From Sphingobacteriales bacterium (GTDB lineage Bacteria; Bacteroidota; Bacteroidia; Chitinophagales; Chitinophagaceae), in NCBI GenBank assembly GCA_026391525.1, contig JAPLEF010000028.1, positions 6,389 through 58,944 of the forward strand: a stretch of 52,556 nt of DNA. The letters are read 5' to 3'. The notes beneath the pieces are model-generated. The model was not told where the DNA came from. It worked only from the letters and a program-made list of their open reading frames with translations, and searched no databases. Numbering within the stretch: position 1 is the stretch's first letter; each line of letters begins with the position of its first letter. The position numbers were made by a program, and so were the translations under genes. Positions 24,914 through 41,163 of this stretch are shown in pieces.

Positions 24914-24989
24914 ATTTGAAAGCACAAGTTAAGGCAGTGCAAAACAATGGTTTGCTTTTTGTTGAATCCGTAACTTTTAAAAACAAAAA

Positions 24990-25014
24990 CCCCTGTTTAA
25001 GAGGTAAACAGGGG
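24990..25014 (-). terminator. Rho-independent terminator of ndk
   Basis: Arms CCCCTGTTTA and TAAACAGGGG with a five-base loop. On the minus strand the stem is followed by TTTTTGTTTTT. It lies 20 bp beyond the ndk stop at 25034. Confidence 0.88.
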
Positions 25015-25033
25015 CGAAATTCATTATTCCTAT

Positions 25034-25450
25034 TTAGAACTGTTCCAATTGGCTGAAGAAGAAATTACCTTCTATTGCCGCATTTTCGTTGCTATCACTG
25101 CCATGAACAGCATTTTCGCCAACCGAAGCGGCGTATAATTTACGGATAGTTCCATCCGCTGCATTTGCGGGATTTGTTGCCCCGATTAGTTTGCGGAAAT
25201 CTTACACTGCATTTTCTTTTTGTAAAATTGCAGCAGTGATGGGGCCACGGCTCATAAATTTAACCAGTTCGCCATAAAAAGGCCTTTCTTTATGTACTTC
25301 ATAGAATGCACCTGCTTTTTCTTCACTGAGATGAGTCATTTTTAAGGCTACGATTCGGAAACCGGCTTTATTAATCATCGCCAAGATAGCTCCGGTATGT
25401 CCATTTTCAGTGGCATCCGGTTTAATCATGGTAAAAGTTCTGTTCGTCAT
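25034..25450 (-). pseudogene. ndk: Nucleoside-diphosphate kinase with in-frame stop codon
   Basis: Ndk moves the gamma-phosphate of NTPs onto NDPs through a phosphohistidine. From ATG 25450 the frame gives a normal start ([18 protein letters not shown]), then TAA at 25202-25204 after 82 codons. The same frame continues without shift for 55 more codons with perfect family sequence ([44 protein letters not shown]) and ends at 25034. The total of 138 codons is the family length. The stop occurs where relatives have Glu (GAA), so one base explains it. The catalytic His of NAVHGSDS lies after the stop, so the truncated product would be inactive. Sequencing error or true nonsense mutation are both possible. 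Confidence 0.92.
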
Positions 25451-25469: not shown

Positions 25470-25477
25470 CAAAGATA
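25470..25477 (-). promoter_or_regulatory. -7 element of ndk promoter
   Basis: The minus strand reads TATCTTTG followed by CA, a textbook Bacteroidota -7 element, 19 bases before the ndk ATG at 25450. It shows that the ndk promoter still looks intact despite the stop codon in the gene. Confidence 0.55.
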
Positions 25478-37383: not shown

Positions 37384-37599
37384 AGATGTTCAGAAGCCGG
37401 TTTTTATAAATGGAGTACCCGTTATGTAAATAAGCCAACTGCAAAAGAAAATAACTTTGTATTGCTTCATGAAGCTTCAGAAGCAAAAGATGGATCTATG
37501 CTTTTTAAAAAAGAAGGCAGAAAAAAAATCAAAAATATTTTTAAAGTAGCCTTAATAAATGATTTTATCAAAAGCCTTGTATCGCTGCAGGCTTTTTAG
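37384..37599 (+). other. Open reading stretch without start, probable gene remnant
   Basis: About 71 codons are open and end with TAG at 37597-37599 (segments RCSEAGFYKWSTRYVNKPTA, NNFVLLHEASEAKDGSMLF, KKIKNIFKVALINDFIKSL). A second frame over the first part reads DVQKPVFINGVPVM and stops, which suggests a broken gene. The end overlaps the convergent PIN-toxin stop by four bases. No family is recognised. Confidence 0.3.
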
Positions 37600-37979
37600 A
37601 ATTTATGCGGATTAACAATTTTCAGTCCATTAATAAAACCAAAATCTTTTTCATTGCCAGTAATAAGCGTATAGCCATAAGCTAAAGCAGTACCGGCAAT
37701 AATAGCATCAGGCGTTTTTATTTTTTTGCCTTTGCGTAAAGCAACACATTGAGCAATCACATCAGGGCTAATATCCAATACAGCACTATCAGCAACAAAA
37801 TTTTGTATATTTTGTGTAGTAGCAGCATCCGTATTCCAACAAAGCAATTCTATTTGAGTAATGATAGAAATATTAGGTGTAGCATCAATAGCAACGTCCA
37901 TAAGAGCCATACCAGCAGCCGAGAACGAAGCTGAAAAATAATCGGACACTACATTGGTATCAATTAAATACTGTTCCAT
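37596..37979 (-). CDS. vapC: PIN-domain toxin, VapC type
   Basis: A 127-residue PIN-domain ribonuclease. The acidic metal-binding residues are visible: D7 in YLIDTNV, E44 in ITQIELL, D91 in KTPDAIIAG, and the late GNEKDF aspartate (D112). VapC toxins cut tRNA or rRNA with magnesium. Its first 16 bases overlap the upstream antitoxin gene, and an XRE regulator gene precedes both, forming a three-gene operon. Confidence 0.9.
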   Translation of the reverse strand: MEQYLIDTNVVSDYFSASFSAAGMALMDVAIDATPNISIITQIELLCWNTDAATTQNIQNFVADSAVLDISPDVIAQCVALRKGKKIKTPDAIIAGTALAYGYTLITGNEKDFGFINGLKIVNPHKF

Positions 37980-38179
37980 TCGCTACGCATTTGTTTAATG
38001 TGTTCGTTTAAGTTTTGCCCCTGCTCTTTAGTAATAATGCCTTTGTATTTGTCAGACAGCTTTTGTTTTACAGGAGTGAAATTTTCTTTCAACACTTTTA
38101 TTAAATGCAGTTCCTGCAGTTCGTGTAAAAGCCGAACAGCTTTTTGGTTGGTTACTTGTATAAGCATTGTATTATCCAT
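37964..38179 (-). CDS. Antitoxin of the PIN-domain toxin
   Basis: A 71-residue protein upstream of and overlapping vapC. The N-terminal part (MLIQVTNQKAVRLLHELQEL) resembles small Bacteroidota antitoxins that pair with PIN toxins. The C-terminus is charged (GIITKEQGQNLNEHIKQMRSE). ATG at 38167 is an alternative start. It begins six bases after the XRE gene stop. Confidence 0.78.
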   Translation of the reverse strand: MDNTMLIQVTNQKAVRLLHELQELHLIKVLKENFTPVKQKLSDKYKGIITKEQGQNLNEHIKQMRSEWNSI

Positions 38180-38185
38180 AAAAAA

Positions 38186-38551
38186 TTATTTAGCGTGGAG
38201 TAATATTTGAATTTTTGTTTTTGCAATATAGGCATCCATTTGCGACAGCACCGTTTTTTTATCATCCGTCTCTAAACTTTGTACTTCTATAAAACGGCTT
38301 ATCAATTCTTTTTCTAGTCCAGCATCCTTTACCACATCATCAGCCGTACCATTCATTAAAAAATCAACAGTAGTATTCAAAGCTTTGGCAAGTTTAGACA
38401 TTGCTTCGGCATTGGGTTTTGTTTCCCTTCTTTCGTAGCGGCTCACTTGAGTAAAATGTACTTCTATTAGTTCCGCTAAGTCGCCTTGCGAAATCCCTTT
38501 TTGTTTGCGGAGTTGCTTTAATCGGTCTGCAAATTCTATTTTATTAAGCAT
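38186..38551 (-). CDS. XRE-family transcriptional regulator
   Basis: From ATG 38551 the protein has 121 residues. Residues 5-60 are a clear helix-turn-helix of the Cro/C1 type (FADRLKQLRKQKGISQGDLA, then HFTQVSRYERRETKPNAEAM). The C-terminal half is helical and acidic (LEKELISRFIEVQSLETDDK). The longer start at 38590 adds a hydrophobic leader and is rejected. It probably represses the operon it heads, with the antitoxin and vapC directly after it. Confidence 0.9.
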   Translation of the reverse strand: MLNKIEFADRLKQLRKQKGISQGDLAELIEVHFTQVSRYERRETKPNAEAMSKLAKALNTTVDFLMNGTADDVVKDAGLEKELISRFIEVQSLETDDKKTVLSQMDAYIAKTKIQILLHAK

Positions 38552-38606
38552 TAGCGTAAAATTATACAGCAAATTTAGCTTAAAAAACAAGTATAATCAA
38601 TAGTAA

Positions 38607-40695: not shown

Positions 40696-41163
40696 GGTAT
40701 AAAAAATTTGTTGATGAATGATTTAAGGTAACTTAACAACCGCAAATAAAATTACAAATTAATTCCCAATAAAATCGTTCAATGAGTTTTTGAATTGCCA
40801 GGCTTTCATACCTCCCCATTCACTAGTTTGAGTCCTTTTTACGCCGCAAATATCATATTTACTGCAGTTTTTCAAAAAATCAGCCATTAGCATATAAAAC
40901 GTCCTTTTACCCTTGCTTTTTTTAGAAGATGAGAGTGCATAACTATTTTATACCGATTGGACAAACAATATAGTCCAATATCGGCTATCGCCTCATCGTA
41001 CTATTTGTTTGATACCATCGGCATTTACTCCCGAAAGCATTCGGGATAAGATTTATAAAATATTGGCATATTATATAAATCACATTGGTATTAATTAATA
41101 GCCTTTAACCGTTCAGATAGATTGAAATGCGTTAATTTTGCAGCCTAAAAGCGCCGCCAGTTC
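40696..41163. other. Intergenic region before lepA with possible small ORF
   Basis: A 44-codon minus-strand ORF at 40759-40893 (MLMADFLKNCSKYDICGVKR...MKAWQFKNSLNDFIGN) has coding-like composition but no recognised family. A hairpin with arms TCCCGAA and TTCGGGA lies at 41029-41046 without a T-run. The lepA -7 element is at 41133. Confidence 0.35.
41133..41140 (+). promoter_or_regulatory. Putative -7 element of lepA
   Basis: TAATTTTG fits TAnnTTTG and lies 23 bases before the lepA ATG. No matching -33 TTTG is seen. Confidence 0.4.

Follow-up and report, generated by a model that had tools for sequence, protein, structure and literature searches.

An in-frame TAA codon interrupts the only ndk gene found in a draft Chitinophagaceae genome: young null allele or consensus error

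The window, a stretch of 52,556 nucleotides from a draft Sphingobacteriales genome, carries the only nucleoside diphosphate kinase gene (ndk) found in that genome, and its reading frame is broken by a TAA at codon 83. We see about an even chance that this is a single, very recent nonsense allele that is read under the standard code and is null. Between a real allele and a consensus error in the draft, we lean slightly towards the former. The likelihoods that we attach here to a real allele, an artefact, read-through and recoding are judgements and were not computed.

Results

One stop codon in an otherwise conserved ndk frame

The in-frame stop that a first-pass annotation had placed in ndk was confirmed as a TAA on the minus strand (Table 1). 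The two parts of the gene that flank it match Pfam NDK separately and in register (98.5 and 64 bits), and the whole gene, when read through the stop, matches the profile at full length (174.6 bits, positions 1-133 of 135). As the annotation had also described, the frame runs on past the TAA for 55 codons of normal Ndk sequence, including the motif NAVHGSDS, to a normal stop followed by a terminator (-16.5 kcal/mol). Apart from the TAA, the ndk frame is free of stops and frame changes. The -7 element reported as intact is likewise in place 27 nt before the ATG: it has the form TAnnTTTG, which we take to be the Bacteroidetes -7 promoter element, and the same form is found within 100 nt of the ndk ATG in 79 of 99 relatives.

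In its size, its order, its NAVHGSDS motif and the register of its halves, this gene thus resembles the intact members of the nucleoside diphosphate kinase family (PF00334). It differs from them in that the frame of about 137-140 codons is interrupted at codon 83, and in that the usual Glu is missing at codons 64 and 77. The histidine of NAVHGSDS, presumably the catalytic residue, falls outside the translated product, since the motif occupies codons 113-120, downstream of the TAA. A premature stop with homology continuing in frame is the pattern of a recent nonsense pseudogene with a single lesion, and the ordinary promoter-like element and terminator are shared with that class as well. What sets ndk apart from it is that this is a widespread housekeeping gene, though one missing from some relatives, and that a consensus error would look alike here.

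Table 1 Features of the interrupted ndk gene and its flanks (window positions)
Feature	Position	Strand	Evidence or remark
ndk codons 1-82, N-terminal part of nucleoside diphosphate kinase	25205..25450	-	Pfam NDK 98.5 bits, profile 1-80 of 135
In-frame TAA, codon 83	25202..25204	-	counted from the ATG at 25448-25450
In-frame continuation of ndk, 55 codons, with NAVHGSDS	25037..25201	-	Pfam NDK 64 bits, profile 83-133 of 135
Codon 64, AAA (Lys); Lys unseen there in 99 aligned relatives	25259..25261	-	alignment
Codon 77, CAA (Gln); Glu in 99/99 aligned relatives	25220..25222	-	alignment
TAnnTTTG element (TATCTTTG), -7-like	25470..25477	-	begins 27 nt upstream of the ATG
Intrinsic terminator, 11-pair hairpin (arms 25005-25015 and 24989-24999), then T-rich run	24979..25015	-	-16.5 kcal/mol, z -6.0

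If the TAA is present in the cell, the ribosome would stop after 82 codons, and the resulting product, lacking the catalytic histidine and the remainder of the C-terminal active site, would make this a null allele. Such an 82-residue fragment is probably inactive, since the whole catalytic C-terminal part is missing. Read from the sequence, the 55 codons after the TAA hold no ATG, GTG or TTG in frame, which excludes a restart of translation, so that the second half could not be rescued in this way.

A stop codon shared with no relative

Matches to NDK were found in 141 of the 147 genomes searched (own genome included; 140 of 146 relatives), and only the genome studied here has an internal stop. 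A TAA at the same position in G147 is the natural end of the ndk of that genome. In the species collection, the first 82 Ndk residues have their best matches mostly in metagenome-assembled genomes titled Chitinophagaceae, Ferruginibacter or Bacteroidota. At the equivalent of codon 83, GAA was read at 65 of 100 relatives' loci, and the encoded residues were Glu (68), Ala (26), Asp (2), Ser (2), Asn (1) and Leu (1), a count from which 10 more loci had been dropped (1 without a downstream match, 9 with partial matches). The annotated contrast, TAA where relatives have GAA, therefore stands for the majority of loci but not as a rule. Some genomes occur twice in this ndk set, which amounts to 93 distinct proteins with our gene included.

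Relative to locus L036, amino-acid differences affect 11 of 81 codons before the stop and 6 of 54 after it, i.e., constraint is not relaxed downstream of the lesion. Equal constraint on both sides of the TAA implies that the lesion is either extremely young or not real, and an unrelaxed downstream half is what a very young lesion would be expected to give. This comparison involves one genome per species, with the nearest compared ndk being 81% identical. Private residues are absent after the stop, and profile likelihood is ordinary throughout the gene: among 40 near relatives, 10 score no higher than our gene before the stop, and 16 no higher after it.

Three codons at which Glu is usual, 64, 77 and 83, each depart from it by a first-base difference, all in a span of 57 bases. 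Changes at codons 64 and 77 could mean that constraint has begun to relax or that the sequence is poor along this stretch, and the three first-base differences together could equally be a local error cluster. Upstream of the stop, our ndk carries two private residues, a high number compared with none in 30, one in 6, two in 2 and three in 2 of the 40 near relatives. As proof of relaxed constraint, the Gln at codon 77 is weakened by private changes at otherwise invariant positions in 8 of the 93 distinct Ndk sequences (own included) and by a Gln at the same position in the intact Ndk of G147. Since, in addition, the part after the stop is as ordinary as described above, codons 64 and 77 are not strong evidence on the fate of ndk.

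Systematic miscalling of Glu codons was considered as well, and counts of Glu against Lys/Gln gave no clear sign of it. Positions with Glu in our genome and Lys/Gln in a relative, set against the reverse, numbered 55 to 56 for G025 and 50 to 52 for G060, next to 31 to 26, 14 to 16 and 17 to 21 in comparisons among relatives. At loci neighbouring ndk the ratio was 17 to 30, which leans to fewer Glu in our genome on small counts. The DHH, arginase, FKBP and DHPS genes of the window showed no private change at invariant positions when aligned with 79, 8, 38 and 25 relatives, respectively.

Recoding and read-through

The first-pass annotation had left three options for this stop, namely a recent loss, an error and a recoded codon. 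Loss and error both remain, whereas recoding has become very unlikely given the tRNAs, the release factors, the ordinary use of TAA and the lack of a second supported internal stop. ARAGORN listed no tRNA with a UUA anticodon in stretches covering all 34 tRNA matches, and it called no gene at one weak match (C75:39556-39617). Two release factors of full length are encoded in the genome, presumably RF1 and RF2, both of which recognize TAA, together with a shorter protein that has an RF-1 domain. In a sample of 239 kb, TAA ends 39 of the 56 long frames that pass the coding filter and is the commonest ordinary stop. This stop-usage count is the only part used of a coding-potential scan that examined 76 stops and was too insensitive to list the ndk stop itself.

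That this genome reassigns TAA to an amino acid, a reading for which nothing speaks but the open frame itself, is extremely improbable in light of these results, to which the survey described below adds that no other supported internal TAA occurs in the 131.8 kb covered of 504.7 kb. Read-through of a real TAA, giving some full-length Ndk, is better placed: the 55 codons downstream of the TAA are constrained as much as the 82 upstream, and the gene keeps an intact terminator and promoter-like element. It too is unlikely, because the stop is found in no relative; two full-length release factors face a codon that both would read, the UUA-anticodon tRNA was not found, and an intact second half is also expected from a very young lesion. 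With recoding and programmed read-through, the gene shares a conserved frame that is open beyond the stop, and it departs from them in that the stop is private, no suppressor tRNA was found and TAA is used ordinarily.

In a separate observation, two low-scoring tRNA-Asn calls with the unusual anticodon ATT stand in a row after a tRNA-Lys at L133 (G000:C75, 1639-1848); these may be decayed tRNA copies.

Absence of ndk in relatives and possible backup enzymes

As proposed in the first-pass annotation, the genome was searched for a second ndk. None was found in the assembly, which holds one NDK match; contigs that read only N (4 of 20 fetched stretches) lay outside both this search and that for tRNAs.

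One relative of the same genus, G054 (rated 100% complete, 110 contigs), has no ndk at the usual locus (L187, G054:C100). Between the DHH gene, which adjoins ndk in our genome, and an arginase-family gene lie two ORFs there, one DUF1801 and one glyoxalase-like. Elsewhere in G054, no Ndk was found by protein search, and the NDK profile gave only a sub-threshold match of 24.8 bits. In a wider sample of the class, 243 of 247 genomes had an NDK match, and the four without one (G300, G324, G289 and G344) are at 99-100% completeness; G300, at 99%, is a single contig and belongs to the same genus as G324. Among the matches listed for this sample, only G147 also has a TAA. G043 and G034 were not used as cases of ndk loss, since the DHH neighbour is missing there too and an assembly gap is as likely.

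Adenylate kinase (Adk) and one pyruvate kinase are intact in our genome, and the NDP-kinase task would fall to enzymes such as these if Ndk were absent. In published work, a viable ndk deletion is reported for Pseudomonas fluorescens, with backups named (PMC4357382), Ndk is called not essential in many organisms (PMC12934123), and the enzymes put forward as possible Ndk backups are adenylate kinase, pyruvate kinase, polyphosphate kinase and succinyl-CoA synthetase (PMC4357382; PMC12934123). Judged by title and the start of the abstract, none of the papers listed deals with an ndk pseudogene in Bacteroidota or with false stops in metagenome-assembled bacterial genomes. Taken together, the absence from G054, the four of 247 class genomes without NDK and the intact likely backups indicate that loss of ndk would be tolerable. 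The earlier description of ndk as an important gene was thus too strong, given its absence at the same locus in G054 and the lack of an NDK match in 4 of 247 genomes.

Assembly quality and other lesions

The draft genome comprises 188 contigs totalling 2.85 Mb and has a completeness rating of 99.94%. The window is part of contig C72, where the ndk stop has a mid-contig position, about 31.6 kb along a length of 58.9 kb. Runs of N of 9 to 101 bases occur in four of the fetched stretches of this genome and resemble scaffold gaps, although N may also stand for withheld bases.

A homology survey, restricted by strand to remove antisense hits, found no other supported internal stop in 131,761 homology-covered bases of the 504,733 bases sampled from this genome; the ndk stop, supported by 97 matches, was the sole one. 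Supported frame changes were absent from the homology-covered sequence of our genome, as they were from G025 and G060. Three other flagged stops at locus L120 of our genome, with one relative match each, proved to be antisense or 5'-flank matches, and the one flagged frame change traces to the same L120 5'-flank match. Control surveys flagged five stops in G025 and five in G060, each on a single match or a few, and these are not comparable as lesion rates. No internal stop was found within 35 ABC_tran and 17 Plug matches. The lack of any other supported stop or frame change in 131.8 kb suggests an assembly that is not visibly error-rich.

A second pyruvate-kinase-like gene, on the minus strand of L192 (G000:C103, about 900-2490), is interrupted by several stops and includes a 77-base unit that is repeated twice (1677-1832). 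This gene was invisible to the homology survey, having no match among the fetched relatives' proteins. A 15-base core of the 77-base unit occurs in 12 of the loci checked in our genome, including window positions 40950-40964. The core is perhaps a dispersed short repeat, the single copy in the window being within chance at two mismatches. Also in the window, a PIN-domain protein is encoded close to a helix-turn-helix protein (37596-38590, minus strand), perhaps as toxin-antitoxin-like genes.

Discussion

The main alternative to a real allele is that the stop is an artefact, either a base miscalled in the consensus or a minor variant caught in the draft, with an uninterrupted ndk in the living population. 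We consider this a serious contender, with a probability somewhat short of even. The fragmentation into 188 contigs with N runs would fit such an error, as would a gene that is otherwise intact and conserved on either side of the stop, the lack of a stop in the matches of the 140 relatives with NDK, and three unusual first-base differences in 57 bases, as might come from a poor stretch. Set against these are the mid-contig site, the lack of other supported stops or frame changes in the covered sequence and in the ABC_tran and Plug matches, Glu to Lys/Gln differences that are in no clear excess across the genome, and four other genes of the window without private changes at invariant positions.

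For a real allele, the same mid-contig site and lesion-free survey combine with the single NDK match in the genome, the ndk-free locus of G054, the four class genomes without NDK, the intact backups, the published viable deletions, the two private residues before the stop and the visibly broken pyruvate-kinase-like copy on C103. The points against it are a post-stop part that is equally conserved, free of private residues and of ordinary profile likelihood, and a fragmented draft with N runs, compared with relatives at one genome per species. Under a real allele, the TAA would be present in the population, and we infer that the backup enzymes would then suffice for NDP phosphorylation.

Whether real allele or artefact, the explanation of this stop is an ordinary one, and it lends no support to a new genetic code. 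Were the stop not real, it would illustrate that a single erroneous base in a draft can be enough to mimic gene loss. Were it both real and fixed in the species, which we regard as possible but doubtful, it would represent the first step of losing the only Ndk, in a genus that includes the ndk-free lineage of G054, and the unusual residues at codons 64 and 77 would mark constraint beginning to relax. With a real stop, a Bacteroidota lineage would have been caught at a very early stage of losing Ndk, which would add one example of such loss and offer a natural test of the enzymes that step in to phosphorylate NDPs.
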